Positions 3,603-37,324 of a DNA stretch of 52,895 nucleotides are shown here, one piece after another. The stretch is from Robertkochia solimangrovi (GTDB lineage: Bacteria; Bacteroidota; Bacteroidia; Flavobacteriales; Flavobacteriaceae). Made by a program: the position numbers and the translations under genes. The notes beneath the pieces were generated by a model. The model worked only from the letters and a program-made list of their open reading frames with translations. It was not told the DNA's origin and ran no database searches. How positions within the stretch are numbered: the stretch's first letter is position 1; each line of letters starts with the position of its first letter. Location of the stretch: NCBI RefSeq assembly GCF_007279655.1, contig NZ_QKWN01000016.1:1-52895 (forward strand). The letters are read 5' to 3'.

Positions 3603-4886
3603 TTAGAATTCAGATTTAACAGGCACTCCGTCCTTCATGACAAAATCAACCTTTCTCAATATGGAAATATCTTTTAGCGGATCTCCCTGCACAGCGATAA
3701 TATCTGCCAGGAATCCGATGTTGATCTGCCCGAGCTCATTTTCCATTTTAAGGATCATTGCGTTGGTGAGGGTAGCGGCCTGAATCGCTTTGATCTCTGG
3801 CATTCCTGCTTCAACCATGTAGACGAATTCCCGTGCATTTTCACCATGTTTAAATACTCCGGCGTCAGTACCAAAGGCAATGCCTACCCCTTTTTTATAA
3901 GCTTTTCCGAAGGTAGCCTGTATTTTGGGGCCAATTTCTCGTGCTTTGACCTCAACGACCGGTGGAAAGTATCCTTCTATTTCAGCATTGATGCTCACTT
4001 CCTTTCCGGCGGTGATCGTCGGTACCAGATAGGCATCATGCTCCTTCATCAATTCCATGGTCTCATCACTCATGAGTGTTCCGTGTTCAATGGTCTTGAC
4101 ACCCCCTAGAATGGCGCGTTGCATACCTTCATCTCCATGAGCATGTGCAGCAACATGGAATCCGTAATCCTTAGCGGTTTCACAGATCGCTTTTATCTCT
4201 TCCAGTGTGAACTGAGGGTTTTGTCCGCTCTTAGCTACGCTGAGTACACCTCCAGTTGCGGTGATCTTGATCACATCGGCTCCGTTCTTATAACGTTGTC
4301 TGACTGCTTTTCTCGCGTCATCTACTCCATTTATAACACCCTCCTTAGGTCCTGGATTCCCCATAAGTTCACTGCTGTTGCCATTGGTGGGATCAGCATG
4401 GCCACCAGTAGTTCCGATAGCTTTACCGGCGGTGAAAATCCTTGGTCCGATGGTCCATCCGCCATCTATAGCATTTCTCAAGGCGATATTGACGCCTGAG
4501 CCTCCGAGGTCTCTGACGGTTGTAAATCCGGCGAAGAGGGTGCGTTTTGCATATTCCTGAGCACGGAATGCGATATCTTCCTTGTCTAAAGTAAAGGCTT
4601 CGAGATAGTGGTTAGGGTTGGTTTCAGATTCCAAATGAACATGGAAGTCTATGAGCCCCGGTAATACGGTATACGATTTCAGGTCGATTACCTTGGTGTT
4701 TTCATTTGTGGGAACCGGGTAACCTTTTTGGATCGCTGTGATCTTATTACCGGTAACGATAATCGTCTGTTCCGAAAGGTATTTGCCTGATTCTGTATCC
4801 AGGATCTTACCGCATTGTAAATAGTAATCCTGAGCGAAGATACTGCCGCTGAGCAGTAATGAGAGTAATAAAAAGAACGTTTTCAT
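3603..4886 (-). CDS. Secreted metal-dependent amidohydrolase (imidazolonepropionase/prolidase-like)
   Basis: This 427-residue protein starts with a Sec signal peptide ending at about residue 19 (GSIFAQ), so it acts in the periplasm or outside the cell. The amidohydrolase metal site is complete: HVH at 82-84, probable carboxylated Lys207 in ADVIKITATGG, His248 and His250 in AAHAHG, His268 in IEHG, and Asp341 in GTDAG. These fit the subfamily that hydrolyses cyclic amides or Xaa-Pro dipeptides, but the substrate cannot be read from sequence. A C-terminal composite beta-sandwich (LADIIAVQGDPLKD) is typical. It lies 121 bp downstream of galE and 59 bp upstream of mfd on the same strand. A leader hairpin lies just before its start. 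Confidence 0.9.
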   Translation of the reverse strand: MKTFFLLLSLLLSGSIFAQDYYLQCGKILDTESGKYLSEQTIIVTGNKITAIQKGYPVPTNENTKVIDLKSYTVLPGLIDFHVHLESETNPNHYLEAFTLDKEDIAFRAQEYAKRTLFAGFTTVRDLGGSGVNIALRNAIDGGWTIGPRIFTAGKAIGTTGGHADPTNGNSSELMGNPGPKEGVINGVDDARKAVRQRYKNGADVIKITATGGVLSVAKSGQNPQFTLEEIKAICETAKDYGFHVAAHAHGDEGMQRAILGGVKTIEHGTLMSDETMELMKEHDAYLVPTITAGKEVSINAEIEGYFPPVVEVKAREIGPKIQATFGKAYKKGVGIAFGTDAGVFKHGENAREFVYMVEAGMPEIKAIQAATLTNAMILKMENELGQINIGFLADIIAVQGDPLKDISILRKVDFVMKDGVPVKSEF

Positions 4887-26017: not shown

Positions 26018-28399
26018 ATGAGTGAAGACCAGAATTTAAATGCCTTATTAATCCGGTTGGAAAATCTGCAAAAGCGACAGGAAGAATTTTCCCTTGAGAT
26101 CAGTGCATTGAAATCAGAGATTTATCGCATTAAAGCAGCGGCATCTGAATCAGTTCAAAAGGCTGAAGCTGAGACTGTGATTGTCACCGAACCGAATGTT
26201 GAGCAGGTGCATGAAAAACCTGAAGTTCCTGCGGTAGAAAAGGAGGTTCAACAGGTTTCTTATATATCCAAAGAACAGGCTCAGGTTGGTGCAAAGACTG
26301 TTTATGGTGCCAGACCGGTTGCTAAACCCAAAACGGATATTGAAAAGTTCATCGGGGAGAATCTCATCAATAAGATCGGAATAGTTATCACCGTTATCGG
26401 TGTGGCCATAGGAGCTAAATATGCCGTCGATCACCAATTGATAAGTCCGCTCACAAGAATCGTACTGGCGTATGTTTTTGGTCTGGGATTGTTGGGTACT
26501 GCCTACAAGCTTAAAAGTAAATATGAGAATTTCAGCGCCGTACTATTGAGCGGAGCGATGGCAATCCTCTATTTTGTTTCCTATCTGGCCTATAGTATGT
26601 ACGCTTTGATTCCGCAATTCATGGCTTTTATACTGATGTTGCTGTTTACAGGATTTACGGTTTTTGCAGCCATACGATATAACAGGCAGGTCATTGCTCA
26701 TATCGGACTCGTAGGTGCTTATGCCTTGCCATTTCTTTTAAGCGATGGCTCCGGAAAGGTTGGATTCCTCTTTTCTTATATGGCGATCATCAATATAGGG
26801 ATCTTGTTCATCGGATTCCGGAAGTACTGGAATGCGTTGTTCAAGGTGGCCTTTGTACTTACCTGGATGATATTTTCTTTCTGGTATTTTACAGATTTCA
26901 GGCAGGGTGAACATTTGATCCTGGGTTCTGTCTTCGCGTTTATATTCTTTGCGATTTTTTACGGAACCTTTCTGGCCTATAAATTTATTCGTAAAGAATC
27001 TTATGCAAAGGAGGATGTAGTTTTCCTTTTATTGAATTCAGTGATCTATTACAGCCTTGGATATGCCATTCTGGGAAGAAATGAAACCGGTGAGCAATTA
27101 CAGGGGGTGTTTACTTTGTTCAATGCAATCCTGCATTTTGTGGTATGTGTGAAAATATACAACGATAAACTTGCAGACAGAAAATTATTCCAGCTTGTTG
27201 CTGGTCTGGTCTTACTTTTTGTGACACTGACATTTCCGGTTCAACTCGATGGAAACTGGGTTACCCTGTTCTGGATTGGAGAAGCCGTATTGTTATATTA
27301 CATAGGGATTAAAAAGGATGCACCGATCTATGAAAAGCTTTCCTACCCGATTATGATACTGGCATTTTTCAGCTTGTTACAGGATTGGGCAATAGGTTAT
27401 GACGCGTATTATTTTGAAGGAGAGGGGTCATCAATGTTACCGATCCTGAACTTTATGTTCTTTACGTCCTTATGTTTTATCGTGGGATTTGGTTATATTA
27501 TGTATCTCAATTATCGGGAAGGGCATAATTCAGCGGTGATTCAAAAAGGAATTTATAAATGGATCTCCAAGACAATCCCTTATTTGCTGCTGATCGTGGC
27601 CTATTTTGCCGGCCGAAATGAGATCAGTTATTATTTCTCTCAATTATATCAATCATCAAAACTAGCAACAGATGCTTCAGAATCTTTTGGGAGCACGTTC
27701 TGGAATAATGATCTGAATGGTTATCGTATCATATGGATTATTAATTATTCATTGATGTTCGTTTCCTTGTTAGGGGTGGCAAATCTTAAATATCTCAAAA
27801 ATCGAAAATGGGGGGTTTTGAATGGGGTTTTACTGATATTTACGCTTTTAGTTTTTATGGGAGAAGGGCTGTATGTGCTCAGTGAGTTACGCGAAAGTTA
27901 TCTCGACCCGATGCATCCGGAATATTATTCATATTCGGTCTTCCATATATTGATTCGGTATGTGTCATTTATTTTTGTGGCATTCGCTTATCTGATCTGT
28001 CGAAAATATTCCAAAGCAGAATTTATGGGTGCGGGCTTGAAAATACCTTATGAACTCCTGCTTGCAGGTGGGGTGTTATGGTTGCTAAGCAGTGAACTTA
28101 TTCACTGGATGGATATTGCAGGATCCTCTGCCTTGTATAAACTCGGACTGAGTATTTTCTGGGGGATATATTCGCTGGTACTTATTGTAATTGGTTTGTG
28201 GAGAAACAAGAAACATCTGAGAATTGCGGCAATAATTTTATTCGGTTTGACACTGGTGAAATTGTTCTTTTATGACATCGCACATTTACATACTATCGCA
28301 AAAACTGTGGTCTTTGTTTCTTTAGGAGTATTGCTATTGATCATTTCCTTTCTGTATCAGAAGTATAAAAATATTGTTTCCGATGACACAGGGGAGTAA
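26018..28399 (+). CDS. DUF2339 polytopic membrane protein
   Basis: The 793-residue protein starts with a coiled coil (LLIRLENLQKRQEEFSLEISALKSEIYRIK, read in parts) and a variable linker, then the DUF2339 signature DIEKFIGENLINKIGI followed by about twenty membrane helices. The family is widespread but has no known biochemical function. It overlaps the following DUF3999 gene by 17 bp, and the same pair is found together in other bacteria, so the two products probably form one complex in the inner membrane. Confidence 0.88.
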   Translation: MSEDQNLNALLIRLENLQKRQEEFSLEISALKSEIYRIKAAASESVQKAEAETVIVTEPNVEQVHEKPEVPAVEKEVQQVSYISKEQAQVGAKTVYGARPVAKPKTDIEKFIGENLINKIGIVITVIGVAIGAKYAVDHQLISPLTRIVLAYVFGLGLLGTAYKLKSKYENFSAVLLSGAMAILYFVSYLAYSMYALIPQFMAFILMLLFTGFTVFAAIRYNRQVIAHIGLVGAYALPFLLSDGSGKVGFLFSYMAIINIGILFIGFRKYWNALFKVAFVLTWMIFSFWYFTDFRQGEHLILGSVFAFIFFAIFYGTFLAYKFIRKESYAKEDVVFLLLNSVIYYSLGYAILGRNETGEQLQGVFTLFNAILHFVVCVKIYNDKLADRKLFQLVAGLVLLFVTLTFPVQLDGNWVTLFWIGEAVLLYYIGIKKDAPIYEKLSYPIMILAFFSLLQDWAIGYDAYYFEGEGSSMLPILNFMFFTSLCFIVGFGYIMYLNYREGHNSAVIQKGIYKWISKTIPYLLLIVAYFAGRNEISYYFSQLYQSSKLATDASESFGSTFWNNDLNGYRIIWIINYSLMFVSLLGVANLKYLKNRKWGVLNGVLLIFTLLVFMGEGLYVLSELRESYLDPMHPEYYSYSVFHILIRYVSFIFVAFAYLICRKYSKAEFMGAGLKIPYELLLAGGVLWLLSSELIHWMDIAGSSALYKLGLSIFWGIYSLVLIVIGLWRNKKHLRIAAIILFGLTLVKLFFYDIAHLHTIAKTVVFVSLGVLLLIISFLYQKYKNIVSDDTGE

Positions 28400-29612
28400 A
28401 CTATATCTGTTTTTATTCTTGCTTACAGGACTGTTCACGTACGGCCAGTTCGATGCATTTGGTTATAAAAGATCAGTGCAGGTTAAGGCGGGATCTTGGC
28501 AGAAGATCGCGTTGCCGGATGCGATCTATGGAAGGCTGTCAGAGGACTTGACGGACCTGAGGATCTATGGTCTTTCAGGGAATGATACCCTTGAAGTGCC
28601 TTACCGGATCGTCAATAAAAAGGAACGAATATCGGAGGATACCATAGGATACAAGATCCTGAACCGGTCTCGTAAGGGGAATGAATATTATTTCACCTTC
28701 GAAATTTCTGAGGATCAAGCGGTAAACTTCATGGATTTAAACTTCAGTAACCGAAACTTTGACTGGAGCGCAGATCTGGAAGGAAGTAATGATCAAAAGG
28801 AGTGGTATACCATTTTGGAAGACCAACGAATGCTGTCGATCAAAAACAGCAAGGCCGATTACCGTTACACGACTCTTAACTTTCCTGACTGCGGATACAA
28901 GTATTATCGACTGAGTTTTCAAAGTGATAAGAACCCCGGATTGTTACATGCTTCCCTGTTCAGAAAAGAGGTTGTAAACGGAGAGTTTAAAACCTATAAA
29001 AAGTTGAATACCGTCACCAGGGAGAATCGCAAGTCGAAACATACAGATATCGATGTAACGTTGAAAGAGCCGGTACCTGTAAGCAGAGTACGGATCACAG
29101 TGGCAGATACCAACGATTACTACCGACAGGTGGTCGTGCGCGGACTGAGCGATAGTATCAGAACGCAGAACGGCTGGGTGTATACGTATAAGGAACTCGC
29201 TTCCGGTACCCTGAGCTCAATGGGGAAGAATGATCTTGAGTTTGATGATAAAGTGGTAAAGAAATTAAAGATCACTATACAGAACAATGATAATGCACCC
29301 CTGGTCATACGTTCCCTGGAAGTGGAAGGTAACCCATATGCTTTGGAGGCAAGATTTGCTGAACCAGCTGATTATTATCTGGTGTATGGAGGAAAGCATG
29401 TTCAGCGCCCTGAGTATGATATTAGGTTCTACGAAGATAATATTCCTGACAACATGCCTGTGGTGATACCGGGTCTTGAGGAGATTATAAAAAAAGATGA
29501 TCCTGAAGTAATTTCACCACTTATCGAACATAAATACTGGTTGTGGTTGGTGATGGGATTGATCGTACTAACAATCGGAGGTTTTACATTGAGAATGATG
29601 AAGGGGGAATAA
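28383..29612 (+). CDS. DUF3999-like exported membrane-anchored protein
   Basis: The 409-residue product has a signal sequence (LYLFLFLLTGLFTYGQ), a large periplasmic beta-rich region with discoidin-like strands (FRYSLNF-type segments, DWSADLEGSNDQKEWYTI), and one C-terminal transmembrane helix (YWLWLVMGLIVLTIGGF). This matches the DUF3999 partner of DUF2339. A TTG three codons upstream (28374) is in frame, but the ATG at 28383, inside the end of the DUF2339 gene, is the better start. Its function is unknown, and coupling to DUF2339 is shown by the overlap. Confidence 0.8.
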   Translation: MTQGSKLYLFLFLLTGLFTYGQFDAFGYKRSVQVKAGSWQKIALPDAIYGRLSEDLTDLRIYGLSGNDTLEVPYRIVNKKERISEDTIGYKILNRSRKGNEYYFTFEISEDQAVNFMDLNFSNRNFDWSADLEGSNDQKEWYTILEDQRMLSIKNSKADYRYTTLNFPDCGYKYYRLSFQSDKNPGLLHASLFRKEVVNGEFKTYKKLNTVTRENRKSKHTDIDVTLKEPVPVSRVRITVADTNDYYRQVVVRGLSDSIRTQNGWVYTYKELASGTLSSMGKNDLEFDDKVVKKLKITIQNNDNAPLVIRSLEVEGNPYALEARFAEPADYYLVYGGKHVQRPEYDIRFYEDNIPDNMPVVIPGLEEIIKKDDPEVISPLIEHKYWLWLVMGLIVLTIGGFTLRMMKGE

Positions 29613-29911: not shown

Positions 29912-32722
29912 ATGCGAAACTACATTGTACTGATTTTTATACTTTTTTTTCAGTTTTCAAATATCTATGCCCAGGAGGGAATTGTTTCAGGGGTGCTGGA
30001 AGATGAAACAGGACCCATGCCAGCTGTGATGGTGAAGATTAAAGGTACGAATCTTGGCACTCAGACAGATTTTGATGGGTACTATAGTATTCATTGTTCC
30101 GTGGGTGATGTGTTGGTTTTTAGCTACATTGGAATGCGTACCAAGGAGGTTGTAGTAACTGCACAAATGTTGGGAGGTGTAATGGATGAAAATTCGGTTT
30201 TGAAGTCTCCGGTGATGTTAAAGGAGAGCCAGGATTATCAGAATCTAGCTTTCAAAATACCTGATTCCATAAGCAAACAGCAAAACAATTTTCACTTACC
30301 CTATGTGCTCAGTGGGTCAAGTTACTTTTTTCCCACTGAGTCGATCAAAAAATTAGAATTCGAAACCAATGTATTGAAGGTAACTCAGTTTGAGTCGGTG
30401 TATCGGTATGAAATCGATCTTAATATTGGAAGTGGGCTCAAGTATGCCGACAAATCCAGATTGCCTGGATTACAACGAGCGTACGCTCAGGGGAGGCCAC
30501 AGGAAGGTAGTCTGCAATGGTTCGGGCCTGAAACAGGGGAGATCTTCTCCTATGGTCCTAATATCAATTCTTTGGTGTTTGATGGGTCGGATTATGCGTA
30601 TGATGACAACGGCAGGCTTATTATCGGTTCAGGAGGGAATACTATTTTACCTTATAAGAATTCAATGTTGCGATCCAGGTATACTTCTTCGTATAATCTG
30701 GCAGTCAAGGTTGCGAATGAAATTAATCTGTTCAGGCTTGGAATGCGCTATGAATCTGAAAAGGATATTTTTAATCTGGAAAGAATAAGTTCCTCTCAAT
30801 TAAATTTTGATTATAAGTATAAACAATTATTGGATTTCAATATCCATCTGGAAGATTATAAAGATGAGCAGCCTAACATCAATGGAATTCTGAACCATGC
30901 CCTGATGTCTGCATGGATCACCCCGGTAACCTTTCAGAATTCACAGGGGTTTCTTTTGGGGAATGATCAACAACGCAGCTTTAGTCCTGATAATTTTAAT
31001 AACCCTGAATGGCTTTTGGGATTGAGTGGTAATGAAGTGGAATTATTCTCCTTAACCTCTTCGGTTAATTCGAAGGTTGAGTTGGGGGAAGAAGTTACGT
31101 TGAATCTGGAGGCTGATTATGTTTTGACCGGCAATGATCAAAATTTTAGGCTTCCGATGAATTCGGTTGGTTTTGAATCCGGGTATTCCAGTCGTAAACA
31201 AATTGATCAAGGGGCTTTTCATGCTTTGAGCAAGTTGGGTTTCAATGCTTATATCGATAATATTACTTCGTTGGCAGGTTTCGTTAAATTGGAGTACGAT
31301 AATACTACCTTGGATTTTAAACTGTTGGAGCAATCGGGGTTTTCTGGTTTTGACTTTCAGGAGGCTTCTGAGATCTCTCAAAAGGATTTGAAACTAACCG
31401 ATAATGTTTTCAGATATTCCGGAAAAATTGATTTTGATCTTTACTTTGCAGATGCCTTTCTCAGTCTCACCAATAATGGTGTGATATCCAAATATCAGGG
31501 TACGAAACTTTTCCTTCCTACCGTATTGATTAACTACGGTTTTCAAGAACTTTTTTATATCGATTGGATAAATCGATTGAACCTATCTGTCGGATGGGGT
31601 AAAGATGTGAAATTGATGCCTCTGTATTATAATAATCAAAGTCACAACAGCTTGGGAATACTGCCGGAAGAACTTGCCGGACTCAAGACTAATAATGATC
31701 TTTTTGTGTCAGATTTTCTGGACTTCGAGAGTGTTGAGAATCTAGATTTAGGTATGAGTATTGATTTATTTAACTACATGATCGGGATTGAATTCGCATA
31801 CTTCCAATCAACGTCCAAAAATTCAATTTTTCCTATTCTTCGGAATAACGGTTTTGAACTTCAGAATATCGCGAAAATCAGGAATAGGGGGGTCGATGCC
31901 TCTCTCGTTTTTAATCTTCCGGGCTATGGTCATAACTTCGATTTGAGTTCAAGTTTTCAGTTTTCAACCTTTAAAGGGAAAGTACTGGATTTAAACGGTG
32001 AAACTGAAAAGGTGCCGATTGCAGGTTTTGCGAATATATCAAACAGTCTTATCCAGGGAGAACAAACAGGAACTCTGATCGGCTCTGGTTATCTCAGGGA
32101 TCAGCAGGGTAACAAAATTATTGATGATTCAGGGTATCCGATCGTAGCAGAAAATCAAATGGTCATAGGGAATGTGACGCCCGATTTCAATCTGAGTATG
32201 ATGAATGAGATCGATCTGTGGAGATTTAATCTAAAATTTTTATTGGATTTTCAAAGTGGAGGAGATGTATGGAATGGCACGAAGAATATTTTGAATTATT
32301 TGGGCAGGTCAAAAGAATCTGGTGATCTACGCAACACGACCGGATATATTTTTCAAGGCGTAGACCGTTCAGGTCAGCCAAATATGATCCCGGTAGATTT
32401 TGCCAATCCGGATCAGAATGTGACTGAAAACCGATGGGTTAGGTATGGTTTTGACGGAGTGGATGAAGATGCCATCGTAGATGCTACTTATTTTAATATC
32501 AAATCAGTAAGTCTGGGTTATGATGTAGTTGCTTCTGAAAAAAGTACTTTATTCCGCGAATTCAGGATAAGTCTTTATGCTACCAACCTTTATTGTATAA
32601 CCCGATCTAAAGGCATATCTCCCTACAACTCTCTATTTGGATTTACCTCCGGGAATGGGCTTGATTTATTTAATATACCATTACAAAAGGAGGCAGGTAT
32701 AAAAATCGATATAAAAATTTAA
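29912..32722 (+). CDS. SusC/RagA-like outer-membrane barrel lacking a plug domain
   Basis: The 936-residue protein has a signal peptide to AQ21. A carboxypeptidase-regulatory-like domain spans about 23-85 (GVLEDETGPMPAVMVKIKG, TDFDGYYSIHCSVGD, FSYIGMRTKEV). In SusC proteins a plug of about 130 residues would follow, starting LDEVVVTGYG and ending SRGANGV. Here there is only a linker (about 86-160), and the barrel begins at once (YEIDLNIGSGL near 166, RLPGLQRAYAQGR at 183-195, FSYGPNINSLVFDGS at 212-226, closely resembling SusC barrel strands). It runs to a normal C-terminus (KEAGIKIDIKI). No SusD gene follows. The missing plug is found in the next gene, 3 bp downstream, so a two-protein transporter is inferred. 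Confidence 0.87.
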   Translation: MRNYIVLIFILFFQFSNIYAQEGIVSGVLEDETGPMPAVMVKIKGTNLGTQTDFDGYYSIHCSVGDVLVFSYIGMRTKEVVVTAQMLGGVMDENSVLKSPVMLKESQDYQNLAFKIPDSISKQQNNFHLPYVLSGSSYFFPTESIKKLEFETNVLKVTQFESVYRYEIDLNIGSGLKYADKSRLPGLQRAYAQGRPQEGSLQWFGPETGEIFSYGPNINSLVFDGSDYAYDDNGRLIIGSGGNTILPYKNSMLRSRYTSSYNLAVKVANEINLFRLGMRYESEKDIFNLERISSSQLNFDYKYKQLLDFNIHLEDYKDEQPNINGILNHALMSAWITPVTFQNSQGFLLGNDQQRSFSPDNFNNPEWLLGLSGNEVELFSLTSSVNSKVELGEEVTLNLEADYVLTGNDQNFRLPMNSVGFESGYSSRKQIDQGAFHALSKLGFNAYIDNITSLAGFVKLEYDNTTLDFKLLEQSGFSGFDFQEASEISQKDLKLTDNVFRYSGKIDFDLYFADAFLSLTNNGVISKYQGTKLFLPTVLINYGFQELFYIDWINRLNLSVGWGKDVKLMPLYYNNQSHNSLGILPEELAGLKTNNDLFVSDFLDFESVENLDLGMSIDLFNYMIGIEFAYFQSTSKNSIFPILRNNGFELQNIAKIRNRGVDASLVFNLPGYGHNFDLSSSFQFSTFKGKVLDLNGETEKVPIAGFANISNSLIQGEQTGTLIGSGYLRDQQGNKIIDDSGYPIVAENQMVIGNVTPDFNLSMMNEIDLWRFNLKFLLDFQSGGDVWNGTKNILNYLGRSKESGDLRNTTGYIFQGVDRSGQPNMIPVDFANPDQNVTENRWVRYGFDGVDEDAIVDATYFNIKSVSLGYDVVASEKSTLFREFRISLYATNLYCITRSKGISPYNSLFGFTSGNGLDLFNIPLQKEAGIKIDIKI

Positions 32723-32725
32723 TCC

Positions 32726-35700
32726 ATGAGAACAGTTATAAATATAGTATCATCGGCATTAATCGCGCTTCTCGTCATTGGATTTGCCCTTCCGGAAAGG
32801 AATACCTCTATTGAAAAAGTATACACCCAAACCGATAAGCCTTTGTATTTGCCCGGAGAAACCATCTGGTTCAAAAGTTATATTACCAATGCAGAAAATC
32901 GGATCTCTATTATTAGTGAAGTGTTGCATGCTGAACTTATATCCCCCAGAGGAGGTGTTATAGCGACTAGAAGCCTTCGTATTAAAAATGGGTATGCCTA
33001 TGGTGATTTTGATATTTCTGAAGAATGGGCCGGTGGAAAATATACATTAAGGATGTATACCAACTGGATGAAAAACCTGAAGGAAGGAGAATTCTTTGAA
33101 AAAGAACTGATCATCCAAAAGATTGTCAGTCCAAATCTGTTAATGTCCCTTGATTTTAACGAAAAGGCCTATGGCAAGGGTGGACATGTTATAGCCAATT
33201 TAGAAATTAAAGATCTGAAAAATAGTCCCCTGGGTAATTTCGTGATCGATTTTCAGATTTTGGTCTCCGGTGCCTTATACAAGACAGGAAGTTTAAGAAC
33301 TTTGGATGATGGCAAAATTAAGGTTGATTTTGATCTCCCCGTCGATCTCAATACAACGGATGTAGTGTTGAATGTAATGGTTCCTTATAAAGGACTCAAT
33401 GAATCTATCGCAAGAAGTATTCCCGTTTCACTGGATAAGATAGACCTTCAGTTTTTTCCGGAAAGCGGAAGTACAATTCAAGGGGTAAATAACCGTATTG
33501 CGTTTAAGGCGGTTAATGAATTTGGTAAGCCCGCCGATGTCTCGGGAGAAATTGTGGATGAAACCGGTGAAAAAATTGTCGCCTTTCAAAGTTTCCATGA
33601 TGGAATGGGGCAATTTGAAATGACCCCCGATACGCAACATTATTATGCCAGGATTCTAACTCCATTTATTTCGGATTCATTGATTGCCTTGCCGAAGAGT
33701 TTGCCTTATGGTACAAAATTCTCGGTGATGCAATCTGGTTCGGTCTATGATATTGATATCTTTTCAACCGATACGGATGAAAAGATCCTGAAAGTATCGG
33801 ATGCAAGCGGAATTTATAAAACCATACCGGTGAGTCTTTCGAATGGTCGTGCAAAACTTGTCTTACCCAGGGAACAGCTTCATCATGGCATACAAAAAAT
33901 AACCTTGTTAAGCAGTCAAGGAACTGGACTTGCGGAGAGGCTTCTGTTCTGTGATAATTCAGGATTTCTCAAAATAGCTGTGGATCTGGATAAGGAGTTA
34001 TATCAAACCAGAGATAAGGTTAAGGTACATATTAAAACAACAGATGCTAATAATAATCCGGTTTCTGCGAATTTGTCGGTAGGGGTGGTAAATAATAAAC
34101 TTATTTCTTATGCTGATGATAGGCAGGATAATATCTTGACATATCTGTTGATGAGTTCCGAATTAAAAGGTAGAATCCATGAGCCATCCTTTTATTTTGA
34201 TGCTGAAGAACCAAAAGCTAGAAAGGCACTCGATATGGTAATGCTGACACACGGATGGAGAAAGTTTATCAGTAATGAAGATAAAATGGAGGATGCGATT
34301 TATCTGCCTGAGAACCTACTTAGACAGATCGGATATGTTATTGATAAGACGGGTAAACGTGTACAGGCTCACCTGGTGTTGTTTGAGATTCTTTCGCAGA
34401 AAGCTTACCCTTTTGAAACCGATAGTAACGGAAATTTCAAATTCACTGTCGATAATAACTCAGAAATGGTTTTGATCGCATATACTGACGACGGAAAAGA
34501 TTTGCAGATTATTTCAGAGGGGCTTACTCAAAATAAAGGAGAAGGAAGTTCCGGAGGCTCCGTAGAGAGCGAATTGATGGGTAAAGATACTTTATTTAAA
34601 GAAAGCTATTTTAGAAGTCCACAAATTAGAGGTATTCAGCAGGAAGTTGAAAATACTGGTTATTTAAGAATGATGATGGATTCAGATGCTGCTGCATTAG
34701 ATGAGGTGGTGGTCGTTGGGTATGGCGCGATTTTAAAGAGCAAAACCATTGGAGGATCAGTAGTTACCATTGATCAAAATGAATTGTTCGAAAATGGTCA
34801 GAATATCTCTGATCTTTTGGGTGGTAGGGTATCGGGTGTCCAAATAATCGAATCATCCGGAAATCCGGGAAGTACCAGTAATATACGTGTTAGAGGGAGT
34901 TCTACAATTTATGGTGATTCTCAGCCTTTACTGATCATCGATGGCGTGCCCGTCGATGGAGTTAATTATACACGGATAATGACTTCTCTTGAAGCTTCGG
35001 AAATCGAATCAGTAGGAGTGATAAAAGGTGCAATGGCTGCGGCCTTGTATGGGAGCAGAGGAAGTAATGGGGTAATTGTGGTTAAAACCAAAAATGGCTA
35101 CAATAACACATTATACATGGCAAAGGAATTCAAAAGAGACCGATTTTTTAATTATGCTTTTAAGCGATTTAGACAATATGGGAGAATGTCCATGAGTGAG
35201 AGTAAACTCTTCTATGCTCCCGTTTATGATAGTGATATAATATCCGAAGAGCGCTCAGATTTCAGAAGTACGATCTATTGGAATCCGGTGGTACAAACAG
35301 ATATGAATGGAGAAGTGAATCTTGAATATTACAATTCGGATGAGATCACTTCCTTTTTGATAACAACGGAAGGGATTGGATATAATGGAGCCGTTGGTAG
35401 AAATGAAACAGAATACGCGACCGGAAGACCGCTGAATATGGATTTTAAATTCCCTGAATTCATGGTTCTAGGTGATACCTTAAGAATTCCAGTTCGCATT
35501 AATAATGAAACCAAAAAAATGCTTTCAGTCAGACTCGATACTGAGTTGCCAGCTGCCTTGAAATTTGTGAAAGGTTTCGAAAGTTCAAAGCTGAAAATCC
35601 CAGCGAATTCCAGTGTTGTTGAGGAATTGACCGTAGTGCCTGTTGAAACCGTTGTGGATGATGACTTTATTGTAAAAGTGAGTGGAGAAGGATATAATGA

Positions 35701-37324
35701 TGTGGTCATTAGAACGTACGATGTCATTAGCCCTTATTTTCCCACTAGTGCTGTGATTTCAGGAGTTAGAAATGGCAACTATGAATTTGAGGTGAATAAT
35801 GCAATAGCCGGAAGTATTCGAGCTGATTTAAATGTTTATATCGATCTGATTGGGGATGTCATGGATGGAGTAGAATCGATTTTGCGAATGCCTTCTGGTT
35901 GTTTTGAGCAGGTTTCGTCCAGTACTTATCCGAATGTAATGATTCTTAAGTATCTCAAAGAAAGCGGGAAACTGAATACTGAAATCGAGAATAAGGCCAT
36001 GAATTACATCAAAAAAGGCTATCAGAAATTAGCAGCCTATGAAACCGCTGAAGCAGGTTTTGAGTGGTATGGTCATAGTCCTCCTCATGAAGCCTTGTCT
36101 GCCTACGGGTTGATGGAATTTTCGGAGATGAAGGAGGTTTATGCGGGAGTAAGTGATGCGATGTTGAAAAGAACGATCAATTTTTTAATGAGTCGCAGAG
36201 ATGGCAAAGGAGGTTTTAAGCAGCATAATGGAAAGTATGGATTTTCCGGTGCTCCGGAAGATGTGAATAATGCTTATATCGTATATGCGATTACAGAGTC
36301 GGGACATAATGTTTCATTGGATCCTGAATATCAACATGCCTATGATGATGCGTTGAAAAGTAATGATTCTTATAAAATGGCTATGATGGCTATGGCAAGT
36401 ATAAATATAGGGCGTTCTGACGAGGCTGATATATTGTTCGATCGTTTGCGGAATAATATTAATGAATATGGGTTTGCTGAATTACCCGTAAAAAGTACCA
36501 TTACCCGTTCCTATAACAATTCTGAGAAGATCGAAAACGCTGCCATGAATGTGCTGGCCCTATCGAGATCCGGGGAAACAACAGATGAACAATTGATCAG
36601 TAAGGGCGTTGAATATATACTTTCAAACCGCAAGAACGGTCGGTTTGGTTCTACACAGGCTACTTCTATGGCCTTAAAGGCTCTGATCACTTATAATAGA
36701 GATCTGAAGCAGAAATTGATCGATTCCGGTAATTTCCTGACCATTGAGATCAATGGGCAAAAGGTCTTAAGTGAATTGAAATCAAATAAAACAGGGAAGG
36801 TCGAAATTCCTGGATTGGAAAAATATATAATAGCAGGGAGGCAGTCCGTAAACATTGCGTTTTCAAATCCGGAAAACACTTTTCCTTATTCAATGGATGT
36901 CTTCTGGGATAGTAAGATCCCGGATTCTGATACAGGTACAGAATTGGAACTGATTACTACCCTAGCTGATTCCATATATACCGTGGGGAATTCAGTCAGA
37001 ATGAATGTTAATGTAAGAAATGTCAAAGAGAACCCCTTACCGATGTCCACTGCTGTCATTGGGATTCCGTCGGGTACCACTTTACAAACCTGGCAAATAA
37101 AGGAATTGCTGGATAAGCGTGTTGCTGATTATATTGAGATCATGGATAATTATTTGGTGTTATACTGGAAGGAATTTGGACCTGGTGAGGTAAAACAGGT
37201 AAATCTTGATCTTAAAGCTGAGATCGGAGGTAATTACAGAGCCCCTGCAAGTTCGGTCTATGTCTATTATGCCGATGAGCTAAAGCAATGGGTGAAAGGG
37301 GAGGAAATCGAGATCGTCAATTGA
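32726..37324 (+). CDS. Alpha-2-macroglobulin family protein with an inserted TonB-receptor plug domain
   Basis: The 1532-residue protein has an N-terminal signal (hydrophobic core about 7-20, no lipobox). An MG2 domain (YTQTDKPLYLPGETIWFKSY) lies at about 32-125, and further macroglobulin-like sandwiches extend to about 640. A SusC-type plug occupies 658-791: LDEVVVVGYG, LLGGRVSGVQI, IRVRGSSTIYG, PLLIIDGVPVDG, ALYGSRGSNGVIVVKTKNG. The A2M segment IYWNPVVQTD follows at about 850-858, then the thioester motif GCFEQ (Cys1059-Gln1062; CxEQ is the usual form), an alpha-barrel thioester domain, and a C-terminal receptor-binding-like sandwich. The plug is where A2M proteins have their bait region. 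It is co-transcribed with the plugless SusC-like barrel gene. A2M proteins trap proteases; the plug would tie this one to the barrel. Confidence 0.9.
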   Translation: MRTVINIVSSALIALLVIGFALPERNTSIEKVYTQTDKPLYLPGETIWFKSYITNAENRISIISEVLHAELISPRGGVIATRSLRIKNGYAYGDFDISEEWAGGKYTLRMYTNWMKNLKEGEFFEKELIIQKIVSPNLLMSLDFNEKAYGKGGHVIANLEIKDLKNSPLGNFVIDFQILVSGALYKTGSLRTLDDGKIKVDFDLPVDLNTTDVVLNVMVPYKGLNESIARSIPVSLDKIDLQFFPESGSTIQGVNNRIAFKAVNEFGKPADVSGEIVDETGEKIVAFQSFHDGMGQFEMTPDTQHYYARILTPFISDSLIALPKSLPYGTKFSVMQSGSVYDIDIFSTDTDEKILKVSDASGIYKTIPVSLSNGRAKLVLPREQLHHGIQKITLLSSQGTGLAERLLFCDNSGFLKIAVDLDKELYQTRDKVKVHIKTTDANNNPVSANLSVGVVNNKLISYADDRQDNILTYLLMSSELKGRIHEPSFYFDAEEPKARKALDMVMLTHGWRKFISNEDKMEDAIYLPENLLRQIGYVIDKTGKRVQAHLVLFEILSQKAYPFETDSNGNFKFTVDNNSEMVLIAYTDDGKDLQIISEGLTQNKGEGSSGGSVESELMGKDTLFKESYFRSPQIRGIQQEVENTGYLRMMMDSDAAALDEVVVVGYGAILKSKTIGGSVVTIDQNELFENGQNISDLLGGRVSGVQIIESSGNPGSTSNIRVRGSSTIYGDSQPLLIIDGVPVDGVNYTRIMTSLEASEIESVGVIKGAMAAALYGSRGSNGVIVVKTKNGYNNTLYMAKEFKRDRFFNYAFKRFRQYGRMSMSESKLFYAPVYDSDIISEERSDFRSTIYWNPVVQTDMNGEVNLEYYNSDEITSFLITTEGIGYNGAVGRNETEYATGRPLNMDFKFPEFMVLGDTLRIPVRINNETKKMLSVRLDTELPAALKFVKGFESSKLKIPANSSVVEELTVVPVETVVDDDFIVKVSGEGYNDVVIRTYDVISPYFPTSAVISGVRNGNYEFEVNNAIAGSIRADLNVYIDLIGDVMDGVESILRMPSGCFEQVSSSTYPNVMILKYLKESGKLNTEIENKAMNYIKKGYQKLAAYETAEAGFEWYGHSPPHEALSAYGLMEFSEMKEVYAGVSDAMLKRTINFLMSRRDGKGGFKQHNGKYGFSGAPEDVNNAYIVYAITESGHNVSLDPEYQHAYDDALKSNDSYKMAMMAMASINIGRSDEADILFDRLRNNINEYGFAELPVKSTITRSYNNSEKIENAAMNVLALSRSGETTDEQLISKGVEYILSNRKNGRFGSTQATSMALKALITYNRDLKQKLIDSGNFLTIEINGQKVLSELKSNKTGKVEIPGLEKYIIAGRQSVNIAFSNPENTFPYSMDVFWDSKIPDSDTGTELELITTLADSIYTVGNSVRMNVNVRNVKENPLPMSTAVIGIPSGTTLQTWQIKELLDKRVADYIEIMDNYLVLYWKEFGPGEVKQVNLDLKAEIGGNYRAPASSVYVYYADELKQWVKGEEIEIVN

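Follow-up and report, generated by a model that had tools for sequence, protein, structure and literature searches.

A plugless SusC-type barrel gene paired with an alpha-2-macroglobulin that carries a TonB-dependent plug in Robertkochia solimangrovi and other Bacteroidota

Two adjoining genes of Robertkochia solimangrovi divide between them the parts of one SusC polypeptide. The upstream gene encodes a SusC-type barrel protein in which no plug was found, and the product of the downstream gene is a thioester alpha-2-macroglobulin (A2M) bearing both a plug and a TonB-box-like motif. A sequence-only reading had drawn attention to these genes as a singular case; instead, the plugless barrel and the A2M-plug form a conserved unit that is spread over several Bacteroidota lineages. 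The pair is probably a naturally split SusC-type TonB-dependent receptor, with a plug that acts in trans and is tethered to a periplasmic A2M. Shown by computation are the architecture, the conserved pairing, the way plug and barrel are present or missing together, the complete predicted barrel, the conservation of TonB box, plug core and thioester motif, and the result that no SusD-like neighbor was found.

Division of the SusC parts between two genes

The window, meaning the whole 52,895-nucleotide stretch of DNA that was analyzed, comes from a genome of 4.4 Mb in 23 contigs. Both reading frames lie where the sequence-only reading had placed them and have the following features.

29912..32722, + strand: gene for the plugless SusC-type outer-membrane barrel, 936 aa
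29987..30166, + strand: N-terminal extension, CarboxypepD_reg-like, residues 26-85 (Pfam PF13715, E 1.8e-11)
30167..30400, + strand: largely disordered linker, residues 86-163 (pLDDT and structure alignment)
30401..32719, + strand: complete predicted 22-strand barrel, residues 164-936 (predicted model)
32723..32725, + strand: intergenic gap, 3 bp
32726..37324, + strand: gene for the thioester A2M carrying the plug, 1532 aa
32816..33076, + strand: MG2 domain, residues 31-117 (PF01835, E 1.5e-12)
34532..34696, + strand: long disordered tether ahead of the TonB box, residues 603-657 (block pLDDT 24-39)
34697..34723, + strand: TonB-box-like motif LDEVVVVGY, residues 658-666 (homologue conservation)
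34745..35074, + strand: TonB-dependent receptor plug, residues 674-783 (PF07715, E 4e-15)
35270..35539, + strand: A2M domain (MG7), residues 849-938, behind the plug and a second tether (PF00207)
35834..36694, + strand: thioester-containing domain (TED), residues 1037-1323 (PF07678, E 2.9e-27)
35897..35911, + strand: thioester motif GCFEQ, residues 1058-1062 (GCxEQ in 54/54 homologues)

The upstream protein has a signal-like start followed by the carboxypeptidase-regulatory-like extension, which is its sole Pfam match; the plug family PF07715 was absent in the Pfam scan at E values up to 1. The SusC model TIGR04056 covers this protein from profile position 278 to 980 of 981 only, which is the barrel part, and the score of 144.8 bits does not reach the curated cut-off of 368.25. 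From about residue 164 onward the protein is predicted to adopt a SusC-type fold with a complete 22-strand barrel, and solved SusC chains align to the model only from residue 162-167 onward. In an ordinary SusC, the TonB box and plug occupy the position taken here by the linker, for which the predicted model gives pLDDT below 50 at residues 89-105, 116-129, and 133-139. The sequence-only reading had described a protein with signal, extension and barrel and without a plug, and this description is borne out. A profile search for a plug in the barrel, which that reading had set as a test, found none in the protein itself and none in homologous barrels (0/41), and a pattern match found no TonB-box-like motif in the homologous barrels (0/54). 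A match to the BamP family NF053692, restricted to residues 2-85 (E 2.8e-4), was set aside. Dokdonia-type barrels of about 800 aa (L081 5035-7455, L082 5053-7461, and L185 3649-6069) leave parts of the barrel profile unmatched (91-159 and 707-761 for L185) yet are paired with an A2M-plug.

The downstream protein supplies the other SusC parts. Its residues 639-797 match positions 59-220 of TIGR04056, on which it scores 172 bits, likewise below the curated cut-off of 368.25, and it scores 47.9 bits on the SusC signature TIGR04057, just over the curated cut-off of 46.2. Seven residues of the plug core (R723, G724, L735, D739, G776, G782, and V783) are invariant in 54/54 homologues. The TonB-box-like motif is conserved at L658 (52/54), E660 (52/54), and V661 (51/54), and the pattern is matched in 52/54 A2Ms versus 0/54 partner barrels, so that the box is present in trans only; the strict pattern is unmatched in 5 of 14 further A2Ms of one family, f5. 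For comparison, the TonB box of Bt1763 is DEVVVTG (excerpt of PMC7782687). The protein also has the A2M domains, with PF01835, PF00207, and PF07678 all above cut-off, and residues 847-1002 of its model align to residues 766-932 of bovine complement C3. The earlier picture of a downstream thioester A2M with a plug and no barrel is therefore upheld by PF07715, PF07678, and the GCFEQ motif, and the idea of neighboring genes 3 bp apart that share what is normally one polypeptide stands on the reading frames, Pfam, and TIGR04056 alike.

Plug and TonB box lie directly ahead of MG7, in the slot of the protease bait region, and the disordered tethers share this slot. The predicted model has disordered stretches on both sides of the plug, and the confidence of the prediction for the plug on its own is low (block pLDDT about 45-63). 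Among 12 A2M segments, the one that contains the first tether (residues 525-655) is the most divergent.

The ordinary relatives of the pair are built differently. Within the same genome TIGR04056 has 57 matches, 48 of which are one-piece SusC proteins. The remaining matches are one SusC matched in two pieces within one frame, both halves of the pair, and five partial matches. Of these five, two are one-piece receptors in which Pfam finds plug and barrel, one is a protein whose plug precedes about 570 residues that match no Pfam family, and two are proteins with the N-terminal extension domain and no plug. By the barrel profile, the nearest ordinary relatives among the matches listed are one-piece SusC proteins of 1050-1165 aa (L140-L148, 389-553 bits), and unlike the split pair, the nine inspected have a plug in the same chain (9/9) and a Pfam-confirmed SusD-like neighbor (9/9); nine proteins of this tier were inspected among the matches listed, and other plugless barrels could exist. 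A profile built from six SusD-like genes matched no gene in the 54 pair loci, whose lengths vary, and matched 10 genes, nine of them Pfam-confirmed, in the nine ordinary SusC loci. SusC/RagA transporters such as BT1763 and BT2264 thus share with the pair the barrel fold, the N-terminal extension, the TonB-box sequence, and the plug motifs; the pair differs in that plug and TonB box sit on a separate protein, no SusD-like neighbor was found, and both halves fall under the TIGR04056 cut-off.

Recurrence, joint absence, and history of the pair

Searching a contig collection with a profile made from the C-terminal part of the A2M gave 217 relatives, and the best 80 of the 217 were analyzed by locus calls with custom plug, barrel, and A2M profiles. 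An intact plug is found in 47 of these best 80 loci, and 45 have upstream sequence, the contigs of L051 and L084 starting inside the A2M. A plugless barrel lies directly upstream in all 45 assessable plug-bearing loci. The other 33 of the best 80 A2Ms are without an intact plug, and a barrel is upstream in 0/23 of those with at least 3 kb of upstream sequence, the 10 loci with less than 3 kb being left out. This distribution (45/45 versus 0/23) corresponds to a Fisher P of 1e-18, a value that is not phylogenetically independent, since the A2M tree needs just two label changes and thus implies few independent events. The 54 pairs compared in this study omit L031 (on the same contig as L052), L131 (a duplicate of L070), L111, L080, L089, and L138; L185 resembles L081 and was not counted as a new pair. 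For 48 of the 54, the intergenic distance between barrel and A2M falls within -4 to 6 bp.

Genome sets at three taxonomic levels agree with these calls. In the family to which the window belongs (397 genomes), 14 genomes have the A2M and the barrel adjoins it in 14/14. The barrel profile, with the two best candidates scored per genome, found among the matches listed the same genomes of this family as the A2M search, plus G106, in which a contig ends mid-A2M beside a barrel fragment. An order-level set of 346 genomes has the A2M in 19, namely four seen before and 15 of another family, and in this second family the pair is present in 15/15 A2M-bearing genomes. In a phylum-level set of 395 genomes the A2M occurs in five, four with the pair and one without plug and without barrel. 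The sequence-only reading had looked to consistent co-occurrence for support and to an A2M-plug apart from any plugless barrel for refutation. Co-occurrence is what we find, and no orthologue with an intact plug is without a barrel where upstream sequence exists.

Loci without an intact plug are read as the joint decay of both receptor halves. The Microscilla A2M at L093 has a degenerate plug, and its barrel gene is replaced by a 129-aa stub with signal and N-terminal-extension domain only. Three Saprospiraceae A2Ms (L104, L112, and L121) retain a TonB-box-like stretch and a partial plug, as read from the sequence, and the A2M of L096 has half a plug remaining; L121 is the only one of these four with enough upstream sequence, and no barrel is present there. 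The plug-free Bacteroidota A2Ms (L095, L097-L100, L102-L110, and L112-L128) have homologous N- and C-terminal parts where the contig covers them and the same GCFEQ motif, and differ from the window A2M in having no intact plug, with plug remnants in some; the 22 whose upstream sequence extends to 3 kb or more are all without a barrel there. Most of them form a group nested among plug-bearing A2Ms in a tree rooted at the midpoint only.

Among more distant paralogues, fifteen MG2-type proteins without a TED (L033-L045, 795-1259 aa) share the MG2-type N terminus with the window A2M, and several have a plug match and an MG7-like end; no plugless barrel adjoins any of these 15. By the custom profile, their plug matches are restricted to C-terminal parts of the plug, weak, or absent. 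The fullest of these plugs (L034 7005-9479) covers Pfam Plug positions 22-107 (E 2e-11), and BLAST aligns it to nearly the whole window plug at 29% identity.

The distances of the two halves, barrel and A2M, are correlated at r 0.92. This agreement is not specific to the plug. In the full set, the partial correlation of the plug with the barrel is 0.217, and four other A2M segments are higher (0.626, 0.432, 0.353, and 0.219), the highest being residues 850-1000; in a closer set of 45 members, the plug reaches 0.35, level with two neighbors (0.35 and 0.37) and above the other nine. A plug-specific co-divergence with the barrel was therefore rejected. Across 54 homologues the plug (residues 655-797) tracks the rest of the A2M at r 0.53, while other segments do so at 0.75-0.93, and this low value may mean that the plug has undergone gene conversion with SusC plugs resident in the genome, or that rates are uneven. 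A2M plugs are mixed with SusC plugs in the plug tree; since the tree gives no resolution, we do not claim that the partner barrel is the one from which the plug was excised.

Proposed plug in trans and the alternatives

In the model that we favor, the upstream gene would yield an outer-membrane barrel without a plug, and the downstream gene an exported A2M in which two flexible tethers hold the matching plug with its TonB box. The A2M would reside in the periplasm, since that is the side to which a TonB-dependent plug turns both of its ends. A SusC barrel without its plug would have an estimated channel of about 20-25 A (excerpt of PMC7782687). The cell should therefore depend on a plug from another source, which the neighboring gene offers. 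The A2M plug would probably enter the partner barrel from the periplasmic side and seal the pore. TonB may well act on the A2M TonB box, withdrawing the plug and opening the pore. Two published cases serve as precedents. In excerpts of PMC7782687, the whole plug is missing in cryo-EM from Bt1762-63 transporters that are empty and closed, and the authors take this expulsion as a likely non-physiological effect of detergent that nevertheless hints at removal of the whole plug by TonB. For FpvAI, a soluble plug supplied in trans partly restores a plugless barrel (excerpt of PMC10994204).

A further step concerns the thioester. Withdrawal of the plug, or protease cutting of the exposed tethers, would plausibly free the thioester domain, and the freed thioester would bind incoming material covalently beneath the channel. 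This triggering is speculation, prompted by the position of the plug and by the bait-region activation of the E. coli A2M (excerpt of PMC4498604), and we regard plug-triggered covalent capture as possible but doubtful. Carried to its full extent, the idea would make the unit a complement-like covalent trap gated by a channel plug, in which the plug replaces the bait, unplugging by TonB or tether cleavage by an intruder both opens the pore and arms the thioester, cargo is captured on entry, and one lineage has a competing, sigma-linked reporter plug; this wider scheme we put forward as an improbable one.

The split receptor is favored by the strict pairing, the location of plug and TonB box on the A2M instead of the barrel, the joint absence, the complete predicted barrel, the tethers, the correlation of distances, and the precedents. 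Counted against it are the lack of special plug-barrel co-variation, the plug tree, the low pLDDT of the plug, the two label changes, the five f5 A2Ms off the TonB-box pattern, and the TED-less paralogues without a plugless barrel. Several of these points bear on other explanations. The plug might be a static peg, never moved by TonB, and serve to fix the A2M as a sentinel beneath a pore in the outer membrane. A simple pattern found no lipobox in the plug-bearing A2Ms (0/54), so another anchor would be useful, and the missing SusD-like lid beside the pair fits such a role; however, the TonB-box pattern is distributed between A2M and barrel as expected if TonB pulls the plug, and the lipobox is equally missing from A2Ms without an intact plug (28/29). 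For the latter reason we rejected lipobox loss as a sign of plug-based anchoring and dropped that idea, and we consider a static peg unlikely. It is very unlikely that the plug merely takes the place of the bait region, inert or with a purely structural role, and is unrelated to any barrel. Its place before MG7, the related MG2 proteins that have partial plugs and no plugless barrel beside them, and a history that looks unlike that of the rest of the A2M could all be accommodated, but the strict pairing with plugless barrels, the joint absence, and the invariant core residues speak against it, as does the width of the pore that a plugless barrel would leave (excerpt of PMC7782687). That the A2M plug acts as a general blocker or decoy for SusC barrels elsewhere in the cell, and not for its neighbor, seems to us extremely unlikely; the genome has about 49 further SusC barrels, and the tree places A2M plugs among those of SusC proteins, yet those barrels carry their own plugs in the same chain, and the gene pairing is strict.

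The unit could also be mainly a sensor, in which occupancy of the barrel by alternative plugs signals the state of the envelope to an ECF sigma factor, with transport or trapping as a secondary role. The case for this comes from family f5, where a second plug protein without a barrel lies ahead of the barrel in 15/15 loci (L170 2891-5206; L171-L184). This protein has a membrane-like segment, as read from its sequence; three long members that were scanned have a Pfam plug and a VWA domain, and two short ones (L173 and L183) matched the custom plug profile and no Pfam family. Directly before it stands a sigma-factor homologue in 14/14 assessable loci, one of which is a Pfam-confirmed ECF sigma, and this arrangement suggests regulation through barrel occupancy in f5. 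Weaker sigma-factor matches also occur near two other pairs (L132 and L139) and adjoin seven plug-free A2Ms (L095, L098, L102, L105, L107, L118, and L126). On the other side, the window pair has DUF2339, DUF3999, and luciferase-like genes as its immediate neighbors, and no gene family except the pair itself exceeds 23 of the 54 pair loci, so that a primary sensory role for the unit as a whole is quite unlikely. The commonest families near the pair loci presumably reflect housekeeping synteny, judging by their names. At L132, a 156-aa protein with two half-plug matches (3623-4093) lies between the weak sigma-factor match and the split pair. Directly upstream of the pair in the window are overlapping DUF2339 and DUF3999 genes (26018-29612). 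A promoter scan that found 34 candidates against 24.9 (sd 4.7) in shuffles was set aside.

Relation to known systems and meaning

The window A2M has the MG2, MG7, and TED domains and the CxEQ thioester motif of type I bacterial A2Ms such as E. coli ECAM/YfhM and the Salmonella A2M. It differs from them in the plug in the bait-region slot and in having no lipobox by pattern, and protease trapping by it is putative; ECAM is anchored to the inner membrane (excerpt of PMC4498604). The artificially split FpvAI resembles what is proposed for the pair in that a plug in trans partly restores function, and differs in being a laboratory construct whose plug is not part of a larger protein (excerpt of PMC10994204). 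The plug-in-trans reading offered earlier is supported, with docking as its conditional element and the protease-trap role of the A2M as a putative one. A search limited to published open-access papers found no description of an A2M with a TonB-dependent plug or of a natural split receptor.

The mechanism of TonB-dependent receptors still poses two questions: what share of the plug comes out of the barrel, and whether the two have to belong to a single polypeptide. With a natural receptor whose plug is a separate protein, plug occupancy could be studied by deletion or exchange while the receptor itself is left uncut. Such a receptor would also place bacterial macroglobulins at a channel, with a possible trigger besides bait cleavage.
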